From a virus: a stretch of 48,207 bases of DNA. The translations under genes and the position numbers were made by a program. The notes beneath the pieces are model-generated. The model was given only the letters and a program-made list of their open reading frames with translations. It was not told the origin of the DNA and did not search any database. The DNA lies in the IMG/VR virus record IMGVR_UViG_3300034092_001658, positions 1-48,207 of that record; one strand, written 5' to 3'. Below, one piece after another: positions 2,649-43,320 of the stretch (the stretch's first letter is position 1; each line of letters opens with the position of its first letter).

Positions 2649-3635
2649 TTAATACATTAAATAAAAATTATCACCAACAATAATATATTCATCATTTTCA
2701 GTTATAATTGGATTAATTAAAATGTCAATTGGTGTTGAAGGTGTAGGAGTTGGTGTAGGAGTACTTGTCAATGTAGGTGTAGGGGTACTTGTAAATGTAG
2801 GTGTTGGCGTTGGCGTAGGAATAAAAGGAATAACAATAATTTCATATGTACTTCCAACCGGAGTTCCTGATAATTGACTAAAAAATGGCTCTCCTGTGTA
2901 GTTGTTATAATCTTCATCTATTGTAACAATAGTTTGTCCTGATAAACTTCCCAAATTAACCGTAACACCTGTAAATATTGTAATTGGAGAACCACTATAA
3001 ACATTTAGAACATTTTCAAAAGTAACATTTATTTCTTCACTATATGGACGATTTAATACTAATGTATAATATGCAATTATAGACCCCGGTTCATATTCGA
3101 CAAAAAGAGTTAAATTTAATGGTTCTAATGTTGGCGTTGGAGTTGATGTCTGCGTAGGGGTATTTGTTTGTGTTGGTGTTAAAGTTGGTGTTGATGTTGA
3201 AGTTGGTGTTACTAAACAAGGATTAAGTGTAACAGTAGGTGTTGGAGTAGACGTTAACGTTGGAGTTACGGTTGATGTGTTTGTTGGTGTTGGTGTTGGA
3301 GTTAATAAACAAGGGTTTACCGTTACTGTTGGTGTTGGAGTACTTGTTTGAGTTGGAGTTAATGTAGGTGTACTTGTCGGGGTTAATGTCGGAGTTGGTG
3401 TTGGGGTAGGTCTTGGAACATTTAATAAGTTTGGACATTGAACCCCATTTACTGTAACAACAATAGTATAAGTACCGTAAACATCTCTAGGTGGAGATAA
3501 TAAATAAGGTCTAAACAAAAACGGTAATGTTTGTTGTCCCAAATTAATTACTACATTATCAACGTCAGGGGTAAAGATTATATTAGCAATCTCCCCATCG
3601 TAATTTATACTATTAATTATTATTGACTGTGACAT
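2649..3635 (-). CDS. Thr/Pro-repeat virion surface protein
   Basis: 328 residues. An N-terminal beta-rich part (1-75) is followed by a long Thr/Pro/Ser tract (about 78-170). A unit STPTPTVT(V/L)NPCL(L/V)TPT occurs twice inside the tract. A second globular stretch (about 172-270) contains TVNLGSLSGQTIVTIDED, which reads like an immunoglobulin-type or Calx-beta-like strand pattern. Another TPTPTPT tract and a short hydrophobic-aromatic C-terminus complete it. The architecture is globular domains joined by rigid glycosylation-prone linkers, as in surface-exposed phage decoration or fibre proteins. It lies between two other surface-type genes with a gap of 10 bases on the upstream side. No enzymatic motif. 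Function is inferred from composition and context. Confidence 0.6.
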   Translation of the reverse strand: MSQSIIINSINYDGEIANIIFTPDVDNVVINLGQQTLPFLFRPYLLSPPRDVYGTYTIVVTVNGVQCPNLLNVPRPTPTPTPTLTPTSTPTLTPTQTSTPTPTVTVNPCLLTPTPTPTNTSTVTPTLTSTPTPTVTLNPCLVTPTSTSTPTLTPTQTNTPTQTSTPTPTLEPLNLTLFVEYEPGSIIAYYTLVLNRPYSEEINVTFENVLNVYSGSPITIFTGVTVNLGSLSGQTIVTIDEDYNNYTGEPFFSQLSGTPVGSTYEIIVIPFIPTPTPTPTFTSTPTPTLTSTPTPTPTPSTPIDILINPIITENDEYIIVGDNFYLMY

Positions 3636-12652: not shown

Positions 12653-14161
12653 ATGATAACAATAATATATTCAACACATAAAGATGAACAATTTAATAAC
12701 AAATTTAAACAACATTTGTTACAAACTGTTGGTCTAAAAGATGTTCAAATTTTGGAATATAAAAACAATAATGAATTTAGTTTGAGTGAGATTTATAATA
12801 AAGGTATATCTCATTCAAATTTTGATATTGTGGTTTGTTGCCATAATGATATAAAATTAGAAAATGGGTGGGGTAAAAAACTTTTAAAAGATTACTCTGA
12901 TAATCCTGAATATAGTATTATTGGAAAAGCAGGTACATCATATTTTCCTGAATCAGGGGTGTTTTGGGAAAAAATGCAACAAACTATGGTGGGACAAGTT
13001 TACCATCAACCTGATAAAGATAAGTGGTTAAGTAAATATTCCCCAAAATTACCAATAATTGTTCCCGTAGTTTCAATAGACGGTTTATTTTTATCATTTA
13101 ATAAGACAAAAATAAAACATACGTTTGATGAAAGTATTGGTAGATTTCACTTTTATGACCATTTATTTTGTTTACCAAATTATTTAGACGGAGTTAAGAT
13201 TGGTGTCACATCATCTTTTGAAATTATTCATCAATCAATCGGAAGACCAAATCAGGAGTTTTACGAAACCAAAGAAAAATTTGTGGAGAAATGGAAACAC
13301 GTTTTACCATTAGATTTAAAACCTGAAAAAATTTACATTCCGGAAATAAAAGAAAAACCAATTAAAAATATTGGTAAAGTAGCCGTTATCATCCCAACCA
13401 AAGGAAATATTGAAATGTTGAAAGAATGTGTTGATTCATTTTACATTCATTGTAACTCTGAATTATTTGACATTTTCATTGCTGATACCGGTTCAACAGA
13501 TGACGAAAAAGAAACATTAAAAAGTAATATAAAAGATTATAATAACATAAAATTAATTGAATATGATTATTATAATTTTGCAAAAATTAATAATGATGTT
13601 GTTAAAAATCACGTAACTGATGAATACGAATTTTTATTATTCTGTAATAATGATATTAAATTATTGAATAATGTAATTTATGGAATGTTAAACATTTTTA
13701 AAACAACACCTAAAGTTGGTACGATTGGATGTAGATTACATTTTGAAGACAATACCATCCAACATGACGGTGTCATTTGTTTATTTGATAGTAAACAAAA
13801 TTTATTAATATCTCATCACGGATTAAATAGTTATTACAATTTTTCAAATAATAACAGAAAAATATTAGGTTCTACGGCAGCATTACTTATCATTAAAAAA
13901 GAGGTATTTATTAAATGTGGTTATTTTAATGAAAATTACACCACTTGTTTTGAAGATGTTGAATTGAATTTAAAGTGTTTAATGTTGGGTTTAGATAACT
14001 ATTGTAATAGTAATTTAGTTTCTTATCATTATGAAAGTCAAACAAGAAATAACGATGATGAAAAATCTAAAAAACAATTTAATGATTATAACAATATATT
14101 AAAACCATTTGTTATTAACAATTATGATAAGTTAAAAACTCATATACAAATAATAAAATAA
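12653..14161 (+). CDS. Two-domain GT2-type glycosyltransferase
   Basis: 502 residues with two GT-A-like halves. The first (1-215: IYSTHKDEQFN, VVCCHNDIKLENGW) resembles the StrF-type Glyco_tranf_2_5 fold. The second (about 243-490: VAVIIPTKGNIEMLKECVDSFY, IADTGSTDDE, LFCNNDIKL, ending YHYESQTR) is a classical GT2 domain similar to rhamnosyl or O-antigen chain transferases. Dual-domain enzymes can add two sugars in turn. It starts 12 bases after the preceding glycosyltransferase and is followed by an aminotransferase. No membrane helices, so it acts in the cytoplasm. Confidence 0.8.
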   Translation: MITIIYSTHKDEQFNNKFKQHLLQTVGLKDVQILEYKNNNEFSLSEIYNKGISHSNFDIVVCCHNDIKLENGWGKKLLKDYSDNPEYSIIGKAGTSYFPESGVFWEKMQQTMVGQVYHQPDKDKWLSKYSPKLPIIVPVVSIDGLFLSFNKTKIKHTFDESIGRFHFYDHLFCLPNYLDGVKIGVTSSFEIIHQSIGRPNQEFYETKEKFVEKWKHVLPLDLKPEKIYIPEIKEKPIKNIGKVAVIIPTKGNIEMLKECVDSFYIHCNSELFDIFIADTGSTDDEKETLKSNIKDYNNIKLIEYDYYNFAKINNDVVKNHVTDEYEFLLFCNNDIKLLNNVIYGMLNIFKTTPKVGTIGCRLHFEDNTIQHDGVICLFDSKQNLLISHHGLNSYYNFSNNNRKILGSTAALLIIKKEVFIKCGYFNENYTTCFEDVELNLKCLMLGLDNYCNSNLVSYHYESQTRNNDDEKSKKQFNDYNNILKPFVINNYDKLKTHIQIIK

Positions 14162-14182
14162 ACAAAAAAAAAATAATTAAAA

Positions 14183-15331
14183 ATGAAAAGAGAAACAATA
14201 CAACTGTTCAAAGTTTTTATGTCTGAAAACGCAGCACCTGAAGTTGCCAAAGTATTAAACAGTGGATATATTGGTCAAGGTGAAAAGGTTGAACAATTTG
14301 AATCTAAATTACAAGATTTCTTTATGAAAGATTACATTGTAACATTAAACTCCGGTACTAGCGGACTTCATTTAGCTTTAGATTTATTAAAAAAATCTTC
14401 AGGTAAATGGCCAGGATTAGAAGATGGTGATGAGGTATTAGCAACATCATTAACGTGTACAGCGTCAAATTTTCCAATTTTAGCAAACAATTTAAATATT
14501 AAATGGGTAGATGTTGACCCAACAACATTAAATATGGATTTAGATGACTTGTCAAGAAAAATAAGTCCAAAAACCAAAGCCATTATGTTAGTACACTGGG
14601 GTGGTTATCCAAATGATTTAGATAGAATTAAAGAAATTCAAAATAAATGTTTTGAGTTATATGGGTTTAAACCGGCGGTTATTGAAGATGGTGCTCACTC
14701 ATTTGGTTCTAAATATAAAGGCAAATATATTGGTAACCATGGTAATATGACTATGTATAGTTTACAAGCTATTAAACATATCACATCCATTGATGGTGGT
14801 TTATTATTATTACCTCACCAAGAATTATATGATAGAGCGAAATTATTAAGATGGTACGGTATCGACAGAAATTCAAACAGAAAAGATTTTAGATGTGAGG
14901 CGGATATTCAAGAGTGGGGTTTTAAATTTCATATGAATGATGTTTGTGCAACAGTTGGTATGGAAAATTTAAAACACGCAGAGGAAATTGTTGGTAGACA
15001 TCAATCTAACGCAAAATTTTATGATGAAAATCTACAAAATATTCCGGGATTAACAACATTAACTAGACATGAGGGTCATGAATCAGCATTTTGGATTTAT
15101 AGTATGTTAGTTGAAAATAGAGACGGTTTTTATAAACACATGAAAGATTGTGGTATTGTAGTTTCTCAAGTTCACGAAAGAAATGATAAACACACTTGTG
15201 TTTCTGATTATAAATCATCATTACCTACTTTAGATAGAATTATTGGGAAAGTTGTTTCAATACCTGTTGGATGGTGGGTTACAGATGAAGATAGACAATA
15301 CATTGTTGATTGTATTAAAAAAGGTTGGTAA
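14183..15331 (+). CDS. DegT/DnrJ/EryC1/StrS-type sugar aminotransferase
   Basis: 382 residues, the usual length. It shows YIGQGEKVEQFE near the start, LNSGTSGLHLAL (phosphate-binding SGTxAL-type loop), VDVDPTTLNMD, an AVIEDGAHSFGSKYKGK segment (catalytic Asp169 region) and the PLP lysine K198 in SLQAIKHIT. The family transfers an amino group from glutamate to an NDP-keto sugar, giving amino-deoxy sugars for glycans. No dehydratase or epimerase for the keto-sugar is in this window, so the phage must draw on a host intermediate or encode it elsewhere. The acetyltransferase at 16986 is a natural partner. Confidence 0.92.
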   Translation: MKRETIQLFKVFMSENAAPEVAKVLNSGYIGQGEKVEQFESKLQDFFMKDYIVTLNSGTSGLHLALDLLKKSSGKWPGLEDGDEVLATSLTCTASNFPILANNLNIKWVDVDPTTLNMDLDDLSRKISPKTKAIMLVHWGGYPNDLDRIKEIQNKCFELYGFKPAVIEDGAHSFGSKYKGKYIGNHGNMTMYSLQAIKHITSIDGGLLLLPHQELYDRAKLLRWYGIDRNSNRKDFRCEADIQEWGFKFHMNDVCATVGMENLKHAEEIVGRHQSNAKFYDENLQNIPGLTTLTRHEGHESAFWIYSMLVENRDGFYKHMKDCGIVVSQVHERNDKHTCVSDYKSSLPTLDRIIGKVVSIPVGWWVTDEDRQYIVDCIKKGW

Positions 15332-19701: not shown

Positions 19702-19721
19702 TTTTAATATATTTTATTATA

Positions 19722-19763
19722 AAAGATAGGTAAACACAATTTAGTTTACTTATCTTTTTTTTT
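19722..19763 (+). terminator. Rho-independent terminator after phoH
   Basis: Left arm AAAGATAGGTAAAC (19722-19735) pairs with GTTTACTTATCTTT (19744-19757) around an 8-base loop, with a single G-T pair. Nine T follow the C at 19754, and A-runs on the left make it potentially bidirectional. Confidence 0.9.
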
Positions 19764-19780
19764 ATATAACTTTTGTTGAT

Positions 19781-20383
19781 ATGAGAATTGGTATAGAAAT
19801 TAATGGAGTGTTAAGAGATACTTTAGGAAAAATTGAACAAACTTATCAGAAATTTTTAATCGATAAAACTGATGGTATTGAAGACGACGAGTCATTTGAA
19901 TATAAAATGACCTACCCGATAAATAGTTTAACATTAAACGACCATTTTTCATTTCCGGATGATGATGAATTATATTCATTTTTATATGAAGAATTTGCTA
20001 TGGAAATTTTTGGTCACGCACAATCCTCAGAATATAATACATTTATTGATTTAAACGAAATTTATATATCTTTAAGAGATAATCACGATTTATTAATTGT
20101 TTCGGATGAAATAGGAAAATCAAAACCCGCATCATTATTCTTTTTATCAAAATTTGGATGTCAATTAGAAAAAGTAAAATTTTATAGTAATTCAACAATT
20201 AATTCAATGTGGGATGAATTAGATATTTTACTTACATCCAATCCAGCCTTATTATTGGATTATCCGTCAGATAAAATATTAATAAAATATGAAACGGATT
20301 ATAATGAGAATATTACCACAATCCATTCTATAAAATCTATAAAAGAATTGGATGATAAATTAAAACAAATTTTAGAATGTTAA
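19781..20383 (+). CDS. HAD-like protein with altered catalytic motif
   Basis: 200 residues. The N-terminus RIGIEINGVLRDTLGKIEQ matches the HAD motif I layout (hhhDxDGVLxD) of 5'-deoxynucleotidase-like proteins, but the two catalytic Asp positions are Glu and Asn (E-I-N). Residues about 100-125 (HDLLIVSDEIGKSKPASLFFLSKFG) resemble HAD motif II/III, with Ser and Lys in expected places, and WDELDILLTSNPALL resembles motif IV. It appears to keep the fold while lacking the nucleophile. It might be a binding or regulatory relic. It starts 18 bases after the terminator T-run and overlaps the next gene by 7 bases. Confidence 0.6.
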   Translation: MRIGIEINGVLRDTLGKIEQTYQKFLIDKTDGIEDDESFEYKMTYPINSLTLNDHFSFPDDDELYSFLYEEFAMEIFGHAQSSEYNTFIDLNEIYISLRDNHDLLIVSDEIGKSKPASLFFLSKFGCQLEKVKFYSNSTINSMWDELDILLTSNPALLLDYPSDKILIKYETDYNENITTIHSIKSIKELDDKLKQILEC

Positions 20384-31773: not shown

Positions 31774-32904
31774 TTAAATACAACCTCCCTCTATTTTAAA
31801 TCCTGTTGACCCCATTCCAGGACCCCCAATAGGTGCATAAACAAAAAATAAATTATTACCTTTACTAGTATCATATACTAATTCATATGGTGTAGTTCTT
31901 TTTTCATAAAGTACGAACTCTCTAACACCATTATTATATTGCTCTAATAAATTAACGAATCCTAAAGAAACTTCACCAGTACCTGTATTAGCTTGTAATA
32001 TTGACTTTAATTTTTTCAAATCATTTTTGTTAATTAAATCTAATGAAATATTTTTTAATTTTTCGTTTTTAAAAATCAATGAAACTAATTCATCTATTGA
32101 TGAAACATTTTTAGTAATTATTTTACTACCACTAACTGCAGGGGATTTTTGGTTATATATTTTAGTTAAACTATCAACCCACGCAGGTATATAATTTATT
32201 ATATCATCCAAATATAATTCTGTAGATACATATCCGGTGTCTAATGTTATTTGTTTTTGAGTATCAGTAACAATTAATCTATCAGGCATTGTTCCCGTAT
32301 CAAAACTCAATTTACCTTTATCATTTAAGTCATTTTGATATTTTGAAGGTAAAATTGCAATATAATTATTCGATTTAGAACCTTGAACTCCTTCATAGTC
32401 AATGTTAAAGTTACACTTCTCAGTAGATTTTTCTGCGGATAAATTTAAAGTTACATATTGATATTTTGTATAGTCAGGGTGTTTAGAACCTTTGGTTTCA
32501 TCCCACTCAGGACCTTGAGCTCCTAAATTATTAATTTTAATAGATATTTTATCACCTAATTTTGATTTTATATATTTTTCAACTTCCGAAGCTCTTAATT
32601 TGGATAAATCTCCTGAGTTTAACCCTACACCTTCATTTGGAACTTTCGATTCTGATGAATTAATCACGATAGTGTTAAATGAACCTTTACCGGATTTTAA
32701 ATAATCATTAATTTGTTTTATTGCATTATCAATTTCAGTAGTATTATTTAACTCATATTCACCACTAGGAAACGAATTTGAAATATTAAATTTTATAGGT
32801 TCTGTAATATCTTCTTTAATTAAATAAAGTTTTTTAGTAGCACTTTCATGAAGTCCTAAAATTCTATTTTTTTCTTCACTTGAAATTTCAAATAAATTTT
32901 TCAT
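31774..32904 (-). CDS. OmpA-like-domain protein with prohead-type leader peptide
   Basis: 376 residues from the ATG at 32904 (MKNLFEISSEEKNRILGLHE); an upstream ATG at 32976 would cross the terminator and is rejected. Residues 1-35 form a charged amphipathic leader ending YLIKED, with an I-K-E site like the (I/L)-x-E sites cut by T4 gp21. Residues about 80-165 (NTIVINSSESKVPNEG, then LSKLRASEVEKYIKSKLG, GPEWDETKGSK) resemble an OmpA-type peptidoglycan-binding domain. No signal peptide, so packaging in the virion is more likely than export. It follows the capsid gene. Confidence 0.55.
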   Translation of the reverse strand: MKNLFEISSEEKNRILGLHESATKKLYLIKEDITEPIKFNISNSFPSGEYELNNTTEIDNAIKQINDYLKSGKGSFNTIVINSSESKVPNEGVGLNSGDLSKLRASEVEKYIKSKLGDKISIKINNLGAQGPEWDETKGSKHPDYTKYQYVTLNLSAEKSTEKCNFNIDYEGVQGSKSNNYIAILPSKYQNDLNDKGKLSFDTGTMPDRLIVTDTQKQITLDTGYVSTELYLDDIINYIPAWVDSLTKIYNQKSPAVSGSKIITKNVSSIDELVSLIFKNEKLKNISLDLINKNDLKKLKSILQANTGTGEVSLGFVNLLEQYNNGVREFVLYEKRTTPYELVYDTSKGNNLFFVYAPIGGPGMGSTGFKIEGGCI

Positions 32905-32918
32905 AATTTTTCTTTTAA

Positions 32919-32927
32919 TATAAATAT
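32919..32927 (-). promoter_or_regulatory. ATATTTATA element before the OmpA-like gene
   Basis: Minus-strand ATATTTATA lies 14 bases from the ATG at 32904, between the capsid terminator and the start. This makes the gene a separate late unit. Confidence 0.45.
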
Positions 32928-32932
32928 AAGAT

Positions 32933-32970
32933 AAAAAAAAAGAGGACAAATATTTGTCCTCTTTTTGGTA
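32933..32970 (-). terminator. Terminator after the major capsid gene
   Basis: A perfect palindrome GAGGACAAATATTTGTCCTC (32942-32961) has nine T on the minus strand after it and five T on the plus strand, so it works in both directions. It lies 26 bases past the capsid stop codon. Confidence 0.95.
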
Positions 32971-32986
32971 TATCATAAGATATTGA

Positions 32987-34903
32987 TTATCTCAATTCTC
33001 TTAAGTCAAATGTTCTAACACCATCAACGGTAATTCTTCCGTAAAAACGGTTATTTACCATCTTTTTCGCGTAACGAGTCATTATACCTTTAATCGGTGT
33101 AAAGTTGAATGGGTTGTACATTGTAGGTGTTAATTGTAATGGTACATACGGAGCGTAAATGTATCCTGTGTCTAACAATGATGTTCCTTTGTGTCCAATT
33201 AACACTTGGTTAGCTGGGAAGTAAGGGTCACGGTAAACTTGGTAACGACCTGCTAATGTACCTACTCTTTCAATACCCATGTTGTATTGGTCTTGCTCAG
33301 GAGACGCATTAGATACGTGGAAGTACTCTAAATCATCAAAGATAGCTGAAACTTCAGAAGAAACAACAATCCAGTTTGCTCCACCTCTTAATGTAGATTT
33401 GTGGATTTGTGCAGACAATTGGTTGATTGCTGTAATTAATGTTTGGTTCCAATCTTTTTGAGTATAAGAAGTTGTTTGAGAAATTCTTCTCCAACCATTG
33501 TAATCCCAACGTAAGTTCCATGCTGCACCTTTACGTAAATCTCTTAAGATTTCACGGTCGATTTCAGCCGCAACTTGTTCAGATAATAAAGCTGTTAATT
33601 CAGCTTCAGCATCGATGTTGTGGAAAGCCGCAACGTCTTGAGCTAACTCAGGAGACCATTGTGCTCTTAATTTTCTTTCTGTAACAGATACAGTAACTGA
33701 ATCTAAATCGAAAGAAACCTCACCGATTTTATCTTCAAATTCTAACTCTTCGTAACGTCTGAAAGCCGCTGCGAATGAAGTTCCTGATACCGCAGTTTCG
33801 ATAGTAGTACCTGTGTAACCATCTAAAGATGTAGAATCACAATCAGCACATACCGGACAAGATAAATCAACTTCTAACCAAATACATCCATCAGCGTCAC
33901 AAACATTTTTGAATGAACCACCGTTACCTGTATTAGATGCTGTACCCGCTGGGTTACCTGAAGGGAAGTAAGTTTGAGTAGTATTACCATATTTCACAAT
34001 ACCTCTACCATAGATTTGAGTCACAACTCTAAATAATAAAGAACCTGTACTAACTGTACATGGTGAAGTTGAAGAAACAGTTAAACCATTTCCTGTGTAA
34101 ACGATTAAGTCAGATAAGAATGATTCAGTATCCATTTCGTTACCATCAGGTCCGATTAATTTTCCTGCACCTGTATCAGCAAAACCACACATTTTAATGA
34201 TAACTTTTCTTGTGTTACCTGAAGCAATAACTGCTGCTCCATCAGTTGTTCCTGAAATGTTAGCATCAACTAAAACTCCACCTGTCCATTTTTGGATAGT
34301 TGTAGTAGCAGTGATTGCTGACCAACGACCTTTAGAATAATCAAATAATCCTGGAGGGTCTAATTGAGCCTCATTTCCTTCATAGAATAAATCATAAAGA
34401 TTTTTTTCGTATACAGGGTTATAAGTTCCTGAACCTGTAGTGTAACCTGCATTTGGATTACCACCTGTACCGTTAGGTGAAGGTAATGTACCATCATTGT
34501 AGTTACCCGGAGCTCCAACAGGTGCATAGTGCTCACCTGAATATTGTCCTGCAATACCATCTTTATATCCTTGGATTTTTGGTACAAAGTAGAATAATTT
34601 ACCGATTGGTAAGTTCATAGCTTGTACAGAAACGATGTCATTCGCTAATAATTTAGAGAATACTCTTCTTACGATAGGAAATACAACAGTTTCGAATGAA
34701 CCTGAAGACCCGTCAGAAGTTGCTTCGTTTATTAAGAAAGACGCTTGGTTCTCATATAACTGAGCTACGTTTTCTCTTAAGTGACCTTTAAGACCTTCTA
34801 GAAATCCTAATTTGTCCCATTTATTAATTGTGTCCTCTTTAATAACTTTAAGGTGTTTTAACCCGATGTTACCAACTAGACCTGATTCTAATAATGCTCC
34901 CAT
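32987..34903 (-). CDS. Major capsid protein, T4 gp23-like
   Basis: 638 residues (T4 gp23 is 521). The region 412-451 (LRAQWSPELAQDVAAFHNID and AEAELTALLSEQVAAEIDRE) closely matches T4 gp23 LKAAYSIELAQDLRAVHGMD and the sequence that follows. Residues 540-600 (GRYQVYRDPYFP, GYIYAPYVPLQLTP) match the C-terminal part. The N-terminal region is probably removed at E60, in SFLINE-ATS, an (I/L)-x-E site equivalent to the cut in T4 gp23. The middle (about 120-370) is an expansion with a Cys cluster, C335, C340, C349, C352 and C355. It forms the head shell and follows the scaffold gene by 33 bases. Confidence 0.95.
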   Translation of the reverse strand: MGALLESGLVGNIGLKHLKVIKEDTINKWDKLGFLEGLKGHLRENVAQLYENQASFLINEATSDGSSGSFETVVFPIVRRVFSKLLANDIVSVQAMNLPIGKLFYFVPKIQGYKDGIAGQYSGEHYAPVGAPGNYNDGTLPSPNGTGGNPNAGYTTGSGTYNPVYEKNLYDLFYEGNEAQLDPPGLFDYSKGRWSAITATTTIQKWTGGVLVDANISGTTDGAAVIASGNTRKVIIKMCGFADTGAGKLIGPDGNEMDTESFLSDLIVYTGNGLTVSSTSPCTVSTGSLLFRVVTQIYGRGIVKYGNTTQTYFPSGNPAGTASNTGNGGSFKNVCDADGCIWLEVDLSCPVCADCDSTSLDGYTGTTIETAVSGTSFAAAFRRYEELEFEDKIGEVSFDLDSVTVSVTERKLRAQWSPELAQDVAAFHNIDAEAELTALLSEQVAAEIDREILRDLRKGAAWNLRWDYNGWRRISQTTSYTQKDWNQTLITAINQLSAQIHKSTLRGGANWIVVSSEVSAIFDDLEYFHVSNASPEQDQYNMGIERVGTLAGRYQVYRDPYFPANQVLIGHKGTSLLDTGYIYAPYVPLQLTPTMYNPFNFTPIKGIMTRYAKKMVNNRFYGRITVDGVRTFDLRELR

Positions 34904-36485: not shown

Positions 36486-36495
36486 TATAAATATC
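36486..36495 (-). promoter_or_regulatory. GATATTTATA element before the scaffold gene
   Basis: Minus-strand GATATTTATA lies 22 bases from the ATG at 36463, in the 166-base gap after the terminator at 36580. Candidate late promoter for scaffold plus capsid. Confidence 0.5.
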
Positions 36496-36856: not shown

Positions 36857-37582
36857 TTAATATCCTAAATAATCGTTTAATTTTTTCATTAAGTCAAGTG
36901 ATTTATTTCCTGAATCACCAACATGTCTTTCAATACTCATTTTTTTCTCTTCTTCTAAGTTCTCGTCATACAGATGTTTGTCATCTTTATTTAAGAATAG
37001 ATACGCTCCCGGAGTTGAAGGTGAGGACACCAAGTCAAAACAAATTAATTCAAAATCGTCTTGTACTTCATTTTGTTCACCAATCTTTTTAAGAGAACCT
37101 ACACCTCTTGACGATATACCTAAAGTAACACCTTGTCTTAAGTAATTTGCTGCCAAATCTCCTTTGGTTGAACAAATACCTCTTTCGTGGTATCCCGGTG
37201 ATGTCAATAATTTAATCTTTCCCATTAGGACATTACCTTCCCACCATACTTCGGTGATTGCGTGAGAAACTCTATCTAAATCAATTAAAGATGATTCCGG
37301 GTGATTTAACTCTGAAAGAGCTGTACCCTTTTTAATCATTTTTTTATAATTATCAGCTTCTCTTTTTAATATACGTTCAGGGTATAATCGACCATTTCTA
37401 TTTGGTGTATCATATTTTTGTAATACAGCATAAAATTCAAATGGTTTTGAGTGGTCTAACATTTCATTAGATTCTCTTATTAATGTTTCGTTACGATTAT
37501 CCTTTGGATTAATATATCCGGCATCGTATTCAACTAATATACCTTTTCCTGATTCGTTCGGTTGTAATATTCTTAAACTCAT
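36857..37582 (-). CDS. Prohead protease, T4 gp21-like
   Basis: 241 residues (T4 gp21 is 212). The serine-protease triad is visible: His94 in ALSELNHPES, Ser157/158 in LGISSRGVGS, and Asp183 in ELICFDLVSSPSTPGA as the third acidic candidate. YAVLQKYDTPNRNGRLYP at 51-68 is the standard N-terminal block of this herpesvirus-assemblin-like fold. It cleaves head proteins after (I/L)-x-E, including the capsid protein at E60. The C-terminal tail (EENLEEEKKMS) is a likely self-cleavage region. It sits between two unnamed genes as in the T4 20-21-22 order. Confidence 0.9.
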   Translation of the reverse strand: MSLRILQPNESGKGILVEYDAGYINPKDNRNETLIRESNEMLDHSKPFEFYAVLQKYDTPNRNGRLYPERILKREADNYKKMIKKGTALSELNHPESSLIDLDRVSHAITEVWWEGNVLMGKIKLLTSPGYHERGICSTKGDLAANYLRQGVTLGISSRGVGSLKKIGEQNEVQDDFELICFDLVSSPSTPGAYLFLNKDDKHLYDENLEEEKKMSIERHVGDSGNKSLDLMKKLNDYLGY

Positions 37583-37598
37583 TTTAAATGTTTTAATA

Positions 37599-37607
37599 AT
37601 AAATATT
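37599..37607 (-). promoter_or_regulatory. AATATTTAT element before the protease gene
   Basis: Minus-strand AATATTTAT lies 16 bases from the ATG at 37582 and overlaps the stop codon of the preceding gene. Confidence 0.4.
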
Positions 37608-38076
37608 AAACATTTTCGGTTTGTAACGTATCTTTAACGGATTTGATTTTTTTAGTTAGATAAAACTTAAAATAATTGTTGTCATAAAAGTTATCGTTGT
37701 AGATTTTATTTGTAATTTTTAATAATGTATCTTTAATTTGTTTTGATTTAAAATCGAGGTTTTCTTCTATAACATAGAAATTAACTTCTAAATTCATAAA
37801 TGATTTTTTACCCAAATTTAATCCACTTGACCTTAAATCTAAATCTACAATAAATTTTGTATCAAAAATTTTATTATTTAACGACTCGTAAACCGAGTGT
37901 TTAATACCCCTACTTAAATTTAAAACTGTTCTCGACCAATTATCGGATTCATAGATTGGTTCAACCCATGTTTGTACGTTTAAGTAAAGTGATTTCAAGT
38001 TTACAGAATCAACTGTCCCATAAACAACTTTCGCGGTTTTGAAACCTGTTAGTTGAGAGGTTTTCCCCTTTTTCAT
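37606..38076 (-). CDS. Unrecognised head-region protein
   Basis: 156 residues. Basic, with strands near the start (FKTAKVVYGTVDSVNLKSLYLNVQTWVEP) and a Lys-rich end (KFYLTKKIKSVKD). It falls between protease and the plus-strand bS21 gene, at the place of T4 gp68/67 core proteins, but I do not see similarity to those. A weak host-type promoter (TTTG-N20-TATCTTTT) lies on its upstream side. Function unknown; a head-assembly role is inferred. Confidence 0.6.
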   Translation of the reverse strand: MKKGKTSQLTGFKTAKVVYGTVDSVNLKSLYLNVQTWVEPIYESDNWSRTVLNLSRGIKHSVYESLNNKIFDTKFIVDLDLRSSGLNLGKKSFMNLEVNFYVIEENLDFKSKQIKDTLLKITNKIYNDNFYDNNYFKFYLTKKIKSVKDTLQTENV

Positions 38077-38106
38077 TAATTTTCATATTTTTCCTTTTAT
38101 TTTTAA

Positions 38107-38138
38107 AAAAGATAGGTAAAATAAGGGGTCAGGTCAAA
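38107..38138 (-). promoter_or_regulatory. Near-consensus host-type promoter, leftward
   Basis: On the minus strand TTTG (38138-38135), 20 bases, then TATCTTTT (38114-38107); the last base is T rather than G. It would drive the 38076 gene and possibly the protease group. The 14-base string AAAAGATAGGTAAA is also found at 19721-19734. Confidence 0.4.
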
Positions 38139-38159
38139 TTTTTTGTTATTTTGATATAT

Positions 38160-38363
38160 ATGTTATATATGTTAATAGTTAAATTAGATAAAAATACACC
38201 AATAGAGAAAGCACTGAAACTCTATAAAAGTAAAGTTATCAAGACACGTCAAAGTTCTGAACTTAATAAGCGAAAAGAATTTATCAAACCTTCCGTAAAA
38301 AAAAGAAACGTGTTAGCTAAGGCTAAACACGTTCAATTAAAATATTATTCGGATAACGATTAA
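38160..38363 (+). CDS. rpsU: Phage-encoded ribosomal protein bS21
   Basis: About 64 residues from MLIVKLDKN (ATG at 38169; an ATG at 38160 adds MLY). VKLDKNTPIEKALKLYKSKV, IKTRQSSELNKRKEFIKPSVKKR matches bS21: the I-x-x-ALK-x-(F/Y)K core, R-x-x-x-x-x-KR-x-x-F-x-KPS-x-KKR block. The basic tail is normal for Bacteroidetes bS21. In that phylum bS21 helps hide the anti-Shine-Dalgarno tail of 16S rRNA, so a viral copy can alter initiation. It is alone on the plus strand inside the leftward head genes, convergent with the 39079 gene and overlapping its end by 4 bases. No strong promoter is visible. Confidence 0.88.
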   Translation: MLYMLIVKLDKNTPIEKALKLYKSKVIKTRQSSELNKRKEFIKPSVKKRNVLAKAKHVQLKYYSDND

Positions 38364-39079
38364 AGATTCTCGTTTAAACTTTTAAGTTTAAAATACGTTA
38401 ATTTGTCGTACTTCTCTGATAACACTTTTGTAAGTGTTTCATCAATTCTAGTTTTCACTGAATTATCTTCGGACGAATTCTTCATTGCTTTTAATTTATC
38501 AACTACATTTTCTTTAAGGGTGTTATATTTCACGGATAATTCACCATCATCTTCAGATAACAATTTAACTATTTCAGCTTTGTCAGATTCACTTAAAGTA
38601 TCAATATAATTCTTAATAGTTTTATTTGCAACACTAACCATAGTTGATAATGGAAGTTCAATACCTTTGGATTCTGTAATTGGAAGTTTTTTCAAATTCT
38701 CAATAATTAAATTTTTACTTTTAATTCTTGATTCAATGGTTAAAACATCTGTTGAAAATAAGTTATCGATATTTTCGTATGAGTTATTAGATTTAGTATT
38801 TCTAACCCACATATTTAATTTTTTCAAATCTGCCGGTAAAATTTTATTCACAGCATTTTCATATAGAGTAATACATTCGTGGATGTATTCTCTTGAATAT
38901 GATTCACTCAAACCTTTTTTAGAGTTTAACTCATCATACATATAGAAAATCTTACTAACATTTTTATTCTCTAATACAAGTTTTTTAAATGTTTTTAATT
39001 CGTCTTTAAATGTGTCGTTTTTATACGACTCAAGTAATACGTTTTCTATCTTCGATTTTAATATACCAAACTTTGTCAT
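38360..39079 (-). CDS. Unrecognised helical head-region protein
   Basis: 239 residues, almost wholly helical, Lys/Glu/Ser-rich, with many (I/L)-x-E type sites (IHE, LLE, LSE). The N-terminus MTKFGILKSKIENVLLESYK is amphipathic and similar in style to prohead-targeted leaders. It lies just downstream of the portal gene and could be a prohead core protein (T4 gp67/68 position). Homology not seen. An ATATTTATA element is 13 bases upstream. Confidence 0.6.
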   Translation of the reverse strand: MTKFGILKSKIENVLLESYKNDTFKDELKTFKKLVLENKNVSKIFYMYDELNSKKGLSESYSREYIHECITLYENAVNKILPADLKKLNMWVRNTKSNNSYENIDNLFSTDVLTIESRIKSKNLIIENLKKLPITESKGIELPLSTMVSVANKTIKNYIDTLSESDKAEIVKLLSEDDGELSVKYNTLKENVVDKLKAMKNSSEDNSVKTRIDETLTKVLSEKYDKLTYFKLKSLNENL

Positions 39080-39092
39080 TTTCTTTTTTAAT

Positions 39093-39102
39093 TATAAATA
39101 TC
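39093..39102 (-). promoter_or_regulatory. GATATTTATA element before the 39079 gene
   Basis: Minus-strand GATATTTATA lies 13 bases from the ATG at 39079 and abuts the portal stop codon. Confidence 0.45.
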
Positions 39103-40969
39103 AATCATTTAAGATTTTATCCAATTCTTTTTCCATATCACCTAAAGAATTTCTTGCTCGAGATAAATCAATGTAAGAATCGTCTTCAGTTAGATTACCA
39201 CTTTCCAATAAGATATTCAAATTATCTCGTTTGACTGATTCAGGAGTTATTTCAGCTTCACCACCCGGTGCCGGTGCTCCACCCGGTTCAGGTGCTCCAC
39301 CCGGTTCAGGTTCTCCACCTAAGTCAAGTCCTCCACCTAAGTCAGATTCAAGACCTCCTCCACCTCCTCCACCAGGTGGTGGGGCAGGAGCAGCCGCTCC
39401 AACGGCCGTAGTTCCGGATTTACTCGCGTATAATTTATCTATAGTATCAAATACACCCGTATGAGTAATTATGGTTGCGGTATTAGTTAATTCCGCACCA
39501 ACCGCTTTTTCAATACGTTGTTGTTGTAAATCTAATTTAATTTCTTCATCAGAGAATCCTAATACGTGTTTCTTAGCCCATGTAACAGATACCGGAGCGA
39601 TACCTTCGATAGCCGCAACAGCATCTTTATACAATAAAATTTTCTCTTTCCAAATATCAATTTTTAATAAATCTGCTTGAGATGATGGGTTTGTAAGAGC
39701 CAATGTAAAGTTTGACAATTCATCCTCAAATCCTAATAAGAATAAATGAATAATTGCAACTTTATTTAATTCGGCAATCATAGATTTTTGAATTCTATTA
39801 ATTGTTCTTGCGAAACGAATATCCATTAAAGATAAATTTTTACCATCACCCGTTACTTCCTCAAAACCTAAAAACGCTTTAGGAACACGAAGTGCTGTTA
39901 ATAATTTCTTTTGGATATATTCAATATCGGCAATCTCCGCCAAATTTTGTGCTCCCGGTAAGGTATCAATTGGACTTGGTGCCGCAGGGTCACGAACAGG
40001 AATAAAGTAATCTTGGTCAACAGCCATTTGATTAAATCTCATATCTACATTCCCTGTTTGAGAATCAACCACTTGACTTCTTTTAAATTTGTTAGCCACA
40101 CGTTGTACATATGGTTCAACATCTTTATCGTCCATATTACCAACATAAACTTTAAATACACGTCTTTCAGGAGCTCTTGAAGTTCTATAAATCAACATCG
40201 CATCTTCTGAAAGTAATAATTGTTTCCAAATACGTCTCGCTTTCTCCAACATAGAAGTACCATAAGGAAGTTTTCTATCATCACCTAATAATCTAAAATG
40301 GGCAATCTCCCATGAATTGAATTCCATGTCTTTAATTTTCCATTTGAAACGTAATCCTTTACTATCCGCAGGTTCTTCAACATTTGCTGATTTCGCAGCC
40401 ATACCTCTCTCCAAACGTTCTATTTCAATGTTTGGTAATTGCATACACCCAACAATGCCTTTTTCCGCATCCAATTTTAGATACACGAAGTTATCTCCAT
40501 ATTTACAAGTATTTCTTGTCCACATAGGTAAATTAGTATTTAAATCTAATACGTTGTTAAATAAGTCAGTTAAGATTCCTTTAATTCTTTTTGATTCAGA
40601 ATAAATCTGTAACATATATCCATTTTGGTCAACAGTTGTTGATTCTTCACCATAGATATCCAAAGCGGCAGAAATTTCAGGAGTATACTCCATCGATTCA
40701 TAATCATAAAATGAAGCTAAACGAGTTGGTTCATAATATACCGCTTGAGTATATAAATTACTTTCAATTTTAGTCCATTGATTGGCTAGATAATAAGTTT
40801 GTTGTGCCTGTAATTTTTCTCTCTCGTATTCGGCTTTAGACGTGGTTTTTAATAATTCCTTCTTATCTAACTGATATACGGGATAATCTTGATTCAATAA
40901 CGAATTTGGTCCAAATGCTTTGGATAACCTTTGCCAAACTGTTAAATCATTATTTTGATTGTTTTCCAT
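39101..40969 (-). CDS. Portal protein, T4 gp20-like
   Basis: 622 residues (T4 gp20 is 524). Family-typical segments are TPEISAALDIYGEESTTVD (95-113), WTRNTCKYGDNFVYLKLD, AMLIYRTSRAPERRVFKVYV, FNQMAVDQDYFIPV and IEYIQKKLLTALRVPKAFLG. It forms the dodecameric ring at the head vertex through which DNA is packaged. The C-terminal 110 residues are a Gly/Pro/Glu low-complexity extension (PPPGGGGGGG, then EPGGAPEPGGAPAPGG), absent from T4. It lies between a Thr/Pro-rich protein and a helical head protein. Confidence 0.93.
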   Translation of the reverse strand: MENNQNNDLTVWQRLSKAFGPNSLLNQDYPVYQLDKKELLKTTSKAEYEREKLQAQQTYYLANQWTKIESNLYTQAVYYEPTRLASFYDYESMEYTPEISAALDIYGEESTTVDQNGYMLQIYSESKRIKGILTDLFNNVLDLNTNLPMWTRNTCKYGDNFVYLKLDAEKGIVGCMQLPNIEIERLERGMAAKSANVEEPADSKGLRFKWKIKDMEFNSWEIAHFRLLGDDRKLPYGTSMLEKARRIWKQLLLSEDAMLIYRTSRAPERRVFKVYVGNMDDKDVEPYVQRVANKFKRSQVVDSQTGNVDMRFNQMAVDQDYFIPVRDPAAPSPIDTLPGAQNLAEIADIEYIQKKLLTALRVPKAFLGFEEVTGDGKNLSLMDIRFARTINRIQKSMIAELNKVAIIHLFLLGFEDELSNFTLALTNPSSQADLLKIDIWKEKILLYKDAVAAIEGIAPVSVTWAKKHVLGFSDEEIKLDLQQQRIEKAVGAELTNTATIITHTGVFDTIDKLYASKSGTTAVGAAAPAPPPGGGGGGGLESDLGGGLDLGGEPEPGGAPEPGGAPAPGGEAEITPESVKRDNLNILLESGNLTEDDSYIDLSRARNSLGDMEKELDKILND

Positions 40970-41026: not shown

Positions 41027-41530
41027 TCATGGGATTGTTGGTGTGGGGGTTGGCGTTGGATAATTAACCGGTGGTACAGGTATTGGGAACGGGTCACAAT
41101 CAACAATTAAGTTATCACCATTTTCTGCTATAATACGGATAAAGTCCTCAGTCGCTAAGTAACAAATCTCAACAATTGGTGAAGGTGTCATTGTAGGTGT
41201 TGGCGTAGGTGTTGGCGTACCCGTTGGTGGTGGTGTAGGTGTTGGAGTAGGTGTTGGTTCTGCCGTTGGTGTTGGTGGAAGAGCTCCACTAAATGTGTCA
41301 ATAGTTCTAGGTCTATTAAAATCAGGTTCAAATACTTTAACACTTAAAATATCTTGACCAGGAACAACCATTCTAGACCCTGCGAAAATTTTACCTGATT
41401 TTTTTCGATTTACAAAACCACCTGATTTACCGACACCCAAATTAAGAGTTGCATTAGCATACAAATCTGCATTTGCATCAAATGTTATACTATTATTTAA
41501 AGTAGAAGTTTTTCTATCGGTAATACCCAT
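41027..41530 (-). CDS. Thr/Pro-repeat protein between terminase and portal
   Basis: 167 residues. Residues 1-85 are globular (TLNNSITFDANADLYANATL, then IFAGSRMVVPGQDILSVKVFEPDF). They are followed by PTPTPTPT-PPPTGTPTPTPT, a short hydrophobic block (VEICYLATEDFIRIIAENGDNLIVDCD), then a further PTPTPTPT end. The Thr/Pro tracts match those of the proteins at 2649-5910 and suggest a shared type of exposed, possibly glycosylated linker. In T4 this interval holds tail sheath and tube genes, which are not here. Function unknown. Confidence 0.6.
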   Translation of the reverse strand: MGITDRKTSTLNNSITFDANADLYANATLNLGVGKSGGFVNRKKSGKIFAGSRMVVPGQDILSVKVFEPDFNRPRTIDTFSGALPPTPTAEPTPTPTPTPPPTGTPTPTPTPTMTPSPIVEICYLATEDFIRIIAENGDNLIVDCDPFPIPVPPVNYPTPTPTPTIP

Positions 41531-41542
41531 TTATGTTTATTT

Positions 41543-41552
41543 GATAAATATT
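41543..41552 (-). promoter_or_regulatory. AATATTTATC element before the 41530 gene
   Basis: Minus-strand AATATTTATC lies 12 bases from the ATG at 41530 and overlaps the terminase stop codon. Confidence 0.4.
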
Positions 41553-43320
41553 ATCTTGTACCAAATAACCAGCCATATTTCATATAATCGTCTCGACTTA
41601 TATTTCCATTACTAAATTGACCAATTCTTTCTCGAGTATTTGGTATTACGGGGTTAAACGCTAATGATTCACTTACATTGTCATTATTAGTGACCGCCCA
41701 AGAATCAATCATCGCTTTAGTATGTTCAGTAACTTTAGTTAATTTACTAAACGATGATTCAGCAACGTAGGTTGCCATCGCAATAGACATGATTAAATCG
41801 TCGTGATGACCTTTTTGGTGGTCAGGTCTACCATTCATATAAATAAATGTATTCATTTCATTATACAAACGAGAACTATAAATTCTAAATCCATGTCTCA
41901 TTACTTCTTCAAACGAAGCAATAATTTGAACTCTTTTATTATTAAAGTTTATTCCCGGAATTTTCTCCGCAGCTTTTGGGTCGTATTTCCATTTGTTTGC
42001 CGTGTCAACACCATCAACATATAAATCTTTATAATTCATTTCTTGAAGTTTTCTTGATGTTGAAACACCCATACCTCCAGTGATATCTATTACCACAAAA
42101 CAAGAATAGTTTGTCGCCCATTTGTGACAAATTTCCGCCATAGTGTCCGGAGGTAATTTACCCACATACTCAGCGACTTGTTCTTGAGTATCAAAATCGA
42201 CAATTTGGAATGAACTAAAATCTTCAGAATCCCCACGAGAAACGTCGACACCCATAATGTATTTATGTCCAATCACAGGTTCTTTCCAAATCCAAAGAGC
42301 ATTCCCCATTAACTTTGATATAGGTTCAAGAATCATATTTTCACGAATCTTTTGCATCATAAGAGAATCAAATACGTTATCCCCCGAACCTAAGAAGTTA
42401 CATTCTAACTCTTGGGATACTTTACGTTTATCGTATTTTAATTTCTTAACCATCGCCTCAAACCAAGATGAACAAGGTTTATACCCGGCATCCATAATAA
42501 TTCTTAACTCTTTATAATTTCTATTTTCATAAGGTATTTTAGACCAATCAAGAAATTCATCTGGTTTATAATCTTCTTTATTCAATAGGAAATGAATTAT
42601 ATCATCAGTTTTTACCAAGAATAAATCTTTAGTATAACGTGGGTCACGATACCAAAACATCTCGGTAATTTTGAAGTCATTCATATTACGTAATGCTTGG
42701 TCATATATTTCGTAGTAAATTGGGTCGTATCCGTTTGGAGTTGAAACAACAATTACTTTACCCCCCGTAGATAGGGACGCCATACAAGCAGCCCAAAAGT
42801 CACTGTCAGCTTCGATAAACGCCGCCTCGTCAAATACAAGTATTGTTGGTGTAAACCCACGCAAGGCATCTTTCGATGTCGCAACGGCTTTAACCTCACA
42901 ACCATTTGTTAATTTATAATGTTTTTGGGAATTTTTTGCTTTATCAAAATCTACACCTGTCCAAGACGGCCATTGAGCAACGAACGCTTTTATTTTATTA
43001 GCCATCTCCAGTGAAGTATCCAACTTATTGGCGATAATCAATATTTTTTCGGGGGTTTCTTTTCTTGCGAATACTAACTTTCGTGACATCCAAGCCGCGG
43101 TAACTGTTGATACCCCGGCCTGTCTGTACTTTAATGCAATGTTTTCATTGTATTCTTCGTAATCTTCTAATAAAGATAATTGGTCAGGAAAAAGTTCTAA
43201 TGGAACATATTTTTTAACCGTATTATCATATGTTTCTAAATACGTTCTAAGTGCGTATTCAACATCTCGATTACATTTTACGTATTCAATTAATACTTGT
43301 TCTTTTGTTAAATTTGACAT
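41551..43320 (-). CDS. Large terminase subunit, T4 gp17-like
   Basis: 589 residues (T4 gp17 is 610). The ATPase domain has a variant Walker A KYRQAGVST (64-72) and Walker B ILVFDEAAF (160-168), with the coupling motif VVSTPNG (191-197). The RNase-H-like nuclease domain has GVDVSRGDS (Asp359), VVIDITGGMG (Asp412) and GHHDDLIMS (Asp507/508). It packages DNA into the prohead through the portal and cuts concatemers. It lies right after an acidic gene and before the Thr/Pro-rich protein and portal. No separate small terminase subunit is recognised. Confidence 0.95.
   Translation of the reverse strand: MSNLTKEQVLIEYVKCNRDVEYALRTYLETYDNTVKKYVPLELFPDQLSLLEDYEEYNENIALKYRQAGVSTVTAAWMSRKLVFARKETPEKILIIANKLDTSLEMANKIKAFVAQWPSWTGVDFDKAKNSQKHYKLTNGCEVKAVATSKDALRGFTPTILVFDEAAFIEADSDFWAACMASLSTGGKVIVVSTPNGYDPIYYEIYDQALRNMNDFKITEMFWYRDPRYTKDLFLVKTDDIIHFLLNKEDYKPDEFLDWSKIPYENRNYKELRIIMDAGYKPCSSWFEAMVKKLKYDKRKVSQELECNFLGSGDNVFDSLMMQKIRENMILEPISKLMGNALWIWKEPVIGHKYIMGVDVSRGDSEDFSSFQIVDFDTQEQVAEYVGKLPPDTMAEICHKWATNYSCFVVIDITGGMGVSTSRKLQEMNYKDLYVDGVDTANKWKYDPKAAEKIPGINFNNKRVQIIASFEEVMRHGFRIYSSRLYNEMNTFIYMNGRPDHQKGHHDDLIMSIAMATYVAESSFSKLTKVTEHTKAMIDSWAVTNNDNVSESLAFNPVIPNTRERIGQFSNGNISRDDYMKYGWLFGTR

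Follow-up and report, generated by a model that had tools for sequence, protein, structure and literature searches.

Why should a phage keep its own gene for ribosomal protein bS21 on the opposite strand among its head genes, and does that gene answer to the control that governs rpsU in related bacteria? The locus that raises both questions lies in an IMG/VR virus record, analyzed here as a whole (48,207 bases, 30% GC; hereafter, the window) and likely a fragment of a larger genome. The reading that we favor, with a probability of roughly one in two, is that phage bS21, made late, would replace host bS21 in the 30S subunit, hide the anti-Shine-Dalgarno (anti-SD) sequence and escape the host feedback.

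The identity and position of the gene are firm. Its open reading frame (ORF) scored over the curated cut-off of Pfam PF01165 (E 3.5e-10, 39.9 bits against 27), matched PHROG 21469 "ribosomal protein S21" (E 2.1e-5) and holds the bS21 core and the KPSVKKR block, as originally predicted for the plus strand. The best solved match was bS21 of Flavobacterium johnsoniae (7JIL chain z, E 2.9e-7), and 9I5V, another bS21, was also among the best solved relatives. The predicted structure has three helices (mean pLDDT 85.5, pTM 0.43), and all 16 Foldseek matches obtained with it were chains of ribosome structures, with a best E value of only 0.05 and none at 0.001. The phage setting was likewise borne out, with the terminase large subunit (TerL), portal, protease and major capsid protein around bS21. 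The features of the locus are collected in Table 1.

Table 1. Features of the bS21 locus (window positions; distances are to the start of the gene named)
Feature	Positions	Strand	Basis or remark
Major capsid protein	32987..34903	-	PHROG 138, E 1e-67
Candidate promoter motif GATATTTAT before 508-aa gene	36487..36495	-	Distance 32
Prohead protease (Peptidase_S77)	36857..37582	-	Pfam, PHROG
Candidate promoter motif AATATTTAT before protease gene	37599..37607	-	Distance 25
156-aa conserved neighbor, divergent	37606..38076	-	No family match; kept in relatives
AAGGGG patch of the original prediction	38123..38128	+	40 nt ahead of ATG 38169; differs among near-identical relatives
GTCAAA box	38133..38138	+	36 nt before bS21; conserved, unexplained
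GATATATAT, degenerate candidate promoter element before bS21	38153..38161	+	At -16; widened pattern
Upstream ATG, originally predicted start	38160..38162	+	Frame varies among relatives; probably not the start
Phage bS21 gene	38169..38363	+	64 aa plus stop; PF01165, 7JIL chain z, dN/dS, start from relatives
TTAA common to the stop codons of bS21 (+) and 239-aa gene (-)	38360..38363		4-base overlap, stops interlock
239-aa conserved neighbor, convergent	38360..39079	-	No reliable Pfam or PHROG match
Candidate promoter motif GATATTTAT before 239-aa gene	39094..39102	-	Distance 23
T4-type portal protein	39101..40969	-	Pfam, PHROG
Terminase large subunit (TerL)	41551..43320	-	Pfam, PHROG

The gene order of the window runs capsid, protease, 156-aa gene, bS21 (rightward), 239-aa gene, portal and, farther on, TerL, with bS21 alone on the plus strand between leftward head genes whose protease, portal, TerL and capsid identities were confirmed. 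In its succession of portal, two small genes, protease, scaffold-sized gene and capsid, the region resembles T4. The original prediction of an antisense gene inside a head operon stood in part, as bS21 lies on the opposite strand in a gap between leftward genes but is not nested inside any gene. The term operon is too strong, given that RNA mapping in the related phages studied in PMC9723584 indicates no single-operon transcription of the region. The 239-aa protein had no matches in the phage collection, and no family could be given to it from matches that were weak and mutually inconsistent. Comparison with two of the three immuto genes between portal and protease, those other than the 73-aa gene, showed no homology (hhalign probability of 11 and 0.3%). 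A scan of positions 37500 to 39200 found no terminator between bS21 and the 239-aa gene, and the window held no Rfam match at the gathering score and no tRNA genes in its 48,207 bases. What looks like an intrinsic terminator, AAAAGATAGGTAAAC...GTTTACTTATCTTTTTTTTT, was seen at 19721 to 19765, before the gene at 19781, and a similar half, AAAAAGATAGGTAAA, lacks a partner upstream of bS21 (about 38106 to 38121). Elsewhere, glycosyltransferase and DegT/DnrJ/EryC1 aminotransferase genes (12653 to 15331) suggest modification of cell-surface sugars, as reported for related phages. The gene adjoining that of the capsid (31774 to 32976) has a subthreshold OmpA-family match (E 3.4e-4, 21.4 bits against a cut-off of 27.2), and PHROG 15511, a family without known function, is matched in part by two genes, at 2649 to 3635 and 41027 to 41530.

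The translation start was originally placed at ATG 38160. Comparison with relatives makes ATG 38169, nine bases later, the most likely start instead, from which the protein opens MLIVK (MLIIP in F. johnsoniae). Among the leaders of 46 distinct relatives that hold the element preceding bS21 (see below), the upstream ATG is in frame in 26, followed at once by a stop in 13 (for instance, L066, L068 and L070 to L074) and out of frame in 7; it is therefore not conserved as a start codon, and we judge its use as one unlikely.

To follow the locus in relatives, we kept the best 80 of 556 viral stretches matching bS21 and the best 80 of 295 relatives of the 239-aa gene. bS21 was present in 79 of the 80 loci reached through the latter (best 80 of 295), the remaining one ending 70 bases downstream, and 77 of these 79 kept the 4-base overlap of stop codons. 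The bS21 search (best 80 of 556), pooled with a further one, gave 53 distinct viral bS21 proteins, of which 34 have the overlap, 14 are followed by an ORF in the same direction and 4 are convergent with other spacing, while 1 lies on a contig that ends too early for its downstream neighbor to be classified. The layout persists where the 239-aa protein is only 24 to 28% identical (L192, L208, L230 and L226), and with interlocking stops at TerL identities of 60 to 64% to that of the window (four records: L192, L208, L226 and L235). Nine larger virus records behind these loci carry one bS21 copy each, and two loci (L035 and L064) sit in records of 318 and 322 kb. Nine representatives make 36 pairs, of which 12 had saturated synonymous sites; in the 24 whose dS could be measured, dN/dS ranged from 0.013 to 0.185, with a median of 0.11, a pattern indicating that bS21 is under purifying selection; it was also more conserved than both neighbors in 16 of the 20 representatives where both could be measured. 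The cultured phages that matched best in TerL and capsid were a Microcystis phage and the Flavobacterium immuto phages (for immuto, TerL 26% and capsid 40% over 55% of its length). Flavobacterium phage immuto 13-6C has related head genes in a similar order from portal to capsid, all on one strand, and bS21 is absent from it. Six records of the phage collection matched bS21, all unannotated and none an immuto phage.

The original prediction had proposed a tree of host and viral bS21 proteins as a check. Built on an alignment of 64 columns, with 70 phage rows and 32 host rows (every other distinct host protein) for a total of 102, it did separate phage from host by one weakly supported branch (91/67), but the short alignment resolves little else beyond placing the window bS21 within well-supported sets of 7 and 49 phage rows. 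The host sample is nearly all Flavobacteriaceae. Some host contigs bear Rhizobium, Limnohabitans, Pelagibacter or Lentimicrobium bin titles, and we take these to be misbinned. According to PMC9723584, which cites other work, Tyr54 of the F. johnsoniae protein stacks on A1534 in the 16S tail. The window protein has His54 at this position, so that an aromatic residue facing the 16S tail is kept. Raw position 54 is occupied by Tyr in 32 of the 53 distinct phage proteins and by His in 17; the remaining 4 have some other residue there, and in two of them (L177 and L226) an indel shifts a Tyr off the raw position. A consistent difference was found at residue 5, which is Pro in all 65 distinct host proteins, while 42 of the 53 distinct phage proteins have Lys.

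Phage and host genes also differ in their leaders. Evidence points to autoregulation of rpsU in F. johnsoniae: the anti-SD is exposed in ribosomes that lack bS21, and these translate rpsU via an exceptionally strong extended SD, below -13 kcal/mol (PMC9976891). We computed pairing with the 16S tail of two Flavobacteriaceae genomes, those among four in which 16S could be located. Host genes were the best 80 of 575 by likeness to F. johnsoniae bS21, and the set is for that reason nearly all Flavobacteriaceae. All 80 leaders, 43 of them distinct, paired at -13 kcal/mol or below (-17.4 to -22.8), versus 0 of 267 other host ORFs (7 at -7 kcal/mol) and 0 of 80 host mock windows (8 at -7). In the 70 of these 80 host leaders that contain GGAGG, this run ends 7 to 11 bases before the start. 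In phages, none of the 66 distinct bS21 leaders reached -13 kcal/mol, 4 reached -10 and 11 reached -7 (median, -2.9), with 0 and 14 of 88 phage mock windows at -13 and -7, respectively. The leader of the window bS21 pairs at -1.8 kcal/mol, far from the -13 of the extended SD of autoregulated rpsU. Since that extended SD drives the autoregulation and the phage leaders are without it, the phage gene looks uncoupled from control of the host type.

The strongest phage leader (L304, -12.5 kcal/mol) belongs to a group of four (L304, L305, L303 and L286; -10.2 to -12.5) with an AGGAGG run that has the end of its GGAGG 16 nt upstream of the start. The run stands directly before the GATATATG element at a spacing that suits the upstream ATG (in L304 and L305, a stop comes directly after this ATG); it could be a start-stop regulatory site or due to chance. 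None of 48 window genes had a leader pairing at -7 kcal/mol or below. The lack of an SD before bS21 may thus reflect the general style of the phage rather than selection, as all 48 scored genes are alike in this, and from these leaders a selective loss cannot be told from a general SD-less style. The original prediction had offered two purposes for the protein, tuning initiation toward A-rich leaders or keeping SD use suppressed late in infection. The leaders of the window are indeed A rich (over 48 starts, A makes up 54% of the preceding 20 bases on average), but that of bS21 itself has 30% A; suppressed SD use fits better, considering the SD-less window genes and the aromatic His54. Among titles and abstract openings (open-access literature, few subscription papers and no preprints), none concerned the SD status of phage bS21 genes. 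PMC9976891 speculates on a phage protease directed against host bS21 and on autoregulation as a counter-defense, and in both of these mentions of phages it leaves phage leaders aside.

Three further elements of the bS21 leader were considered. The AAGGGG patch, originally noted as a possible hint of SD use, does exist, but its counterparts in near-identical relatives read AAGGTG (L014), AAGGCG (L021) and AAGTCG (L022), and it was rejected as an SD site for its wrong distance and lack of conservation. GTCAA is conserved in 67 of 88 distinct phage leaders, at no more than 45 nt from the start. GTCAAA was discarded as a general promoter box, since of its 44 window sites only 3 precede a start by 120 nt or less. 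One of these is the site of bS21 itself, and the copy before the capsid gene falls within the tail end of the upstream coding sequence; the box before bS21 may belong to the divergent leftward gene. The third element, ATATTTAT, is a candidate promoter. It has 23 occurrences in the window, both strands taken together, and lies within 60 bases upstream, on the sense strand, of 10 of 49 genes (0.7 expected from an even spread; 2 antisense). In the head cluster it precedes the protease, 508-aa and 239-aa genes (at 25, 32 and 23 bases), while the capsid, portal, TerL and 156-aa genes have none within 60 bases. Before bS21, the clade of the window has GATATATAT and other relatives have GATATATG, the pattern that catches GATATATAT having been widened after the relatives were seen. 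Four distant relatives (L208, L192, L178 and L237) have the canonical ATATTTAT there, and three (L182, L219 and L226) have no such element. In 15 related loci with antisense bS21, 1 to 4 large ORFs per locus have ATATTTAT versus at most 0.2 expected, whereas of three loci with bS21 in other settings, two (L195 and L176) have it before no ORF and one (L163) before 1 of 5. It preceded 0 of 202 ORFs in 40 host contigs (1.2 expected). The motif alone cannot show late timing, because it is degenerate before bS21, was widened post hoc and is missing as ATATTTAT at the capsid, portal, TerL and 156-aa genes.

Late expression in the phage of the window is suggested instead by RNA from related phages, in which bS21 and the capsid gene are among the 100 most transcribed genes (PMC9723584). 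Under the favored reading, phage bS21 made at this stage would take over from host bS21 in the 30S subunit and hold the anti-SD tail of 16S rRNA in the platform pocket, with His54 standing for Tyr54; ribosomes would stay committed to SD-less mRNAs, the kind that the phage appears to make. Synthesis of the phage protein should escape shut-off as ribosomes fill, because its gene is without the extended SD signal. Phage bS21 would moreover close the host feedback loop and repress host rpsU, which would in turn favor replacement. We infer incorporation into ribosomes and every regulatory step, including the effect on host rpsU. Replacement of host bS21 is plausible and was already proposed in PMC9723584. 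The bS21 of pelagiphage HTVC008M enters Escherichia coli ribosomes, although these had about 5% activity in vitro (PMC6375957), a result that counts against the favored reading, as does the loosening of anti-SD control by Y54A in F. johnsoniae (PMC9976891). A bolder version, which we hold only tentatively, is that the phage turns the host feedback on the host itself. An excess of bS21 in Flavobacteriales would fill ribosomes, hide the anti-SD and damp rpsU; SD-free phage bS21 could saturate the ribosomes in this way and silence host rpsU, the pool being converted to phage bS21 with no need to destroy the host protein. The contrast between leaders (80 of 80 sampled host leaders against 0 of 66 in phages) predicts that phage bS21 lowers rpsU'-gfp expression in F. 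johnsoniae and that a reporter with the phage bS21 leader stays insensitive to it.

Another explanation, somewhat unlikely in our view, is that phage bS21 is functionally equal to that of the host and tops up ribosomes for SD-less late mRNAs, with no preference for the phage. This agrees with phage leaders without strong SD pairing, with the conservation of the core residues and the aromatic position, and with the 2-fold-lower protein yield from an SD-less template by F. johnsoniae ribosomes whose bS21 lacks the C terminus (PMC9976891). However, phage and host proteins fall on opposite sides of a branch, albeit weakly supported, and differ consistently near the N terminus (residue 5), and the host feedback loop should already provide bS21. 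It is improbable that this small basic RNA-binding protein acts outside the ribosome, in head assembly or packaged in the virion, a role in keeping with a place among head genes fixed over deep divergence; PMC9723584 raised packaging as a possibility. What is conserved is the bS21 core, together with the aromatic position that faces the 16S tail, other arrangements exist (the 14 of 53 distinct proteins with a same-direction ORF next), and immuto 13-6C has related head genes without bS21. Moreover, 512 of 900 published genomes have none of six structural genes within ten genes of bS21, versus 388 with one (PMC9723584). Poisoning, by which phage bS21 would enter ribosomes and lower host translation while another factor spares phage messages, seems quite improbable too: the residual activity of about 5% that speaks for it was obtained in a distant host, E. 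coli (PMC6375957), and expression is expected alongside capsid genes, when the phage needs translation (PMC9723584). A neutral passenger gene, for which we found no evidence, is contradicted by the low dN/dS values and by the stronger conservation of bS21 relative to its neighbors, and is very improbable.

The gene, its position and the idea of ribosome takeover are already published for freshwater Bacteroidetes jumbo phages encoding bS21 (clades a to e; Chen et al. 2022, PMC9723584), and the phage of the window is for this reason a further case of a known phenomenon. In those phages, as in the window, bS21 lies on the opposite strand, flanked by two hypothetical genes inside the TerL, portal, protease and capsid region, position 54 is aromatic, and GC content is low (31.0 to 33.7% versus 30%). 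Their complete genomes, of about 293 to 331 kb, have 5 to 25 tRNA genes, compared to none in the 48-kb window. PMC9723584 reports no bS21 next to TerL sequences with less than about 70% similarity to those of its own set, whereas the layout described here reaches TerL identities of 60 to 64%; a term search of its main text gave one general remark on SD and nothing on promoters, leaders or autoregulation. Pelagibacter phage HTVC008M, of another host group, likewise encodes a bS21, one that was tested in ribosomes (PMC6375957), a likeness drawn from description. Compared to F. johnsoniae rpsU (PMC9976891; 7JIL), the window gene shares the bS21 family, the start MLI, the KPSV block and an aromatic residue facing the anti-SD tail, and differs by lacking the extended SD, by His54 and by K5 for P5; its product is 44% identical to a 57-residue F. 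johnsoniae fragment and 33 to 41% identical to seven full host proteins. To the known systems, our analysis adds the SD contrast between host and phage, a candidate promoter and the layout at deeper TerL divergence, and the proposed mechanism would tie the specialized ribosomes known from bacteria to takeover by phages.
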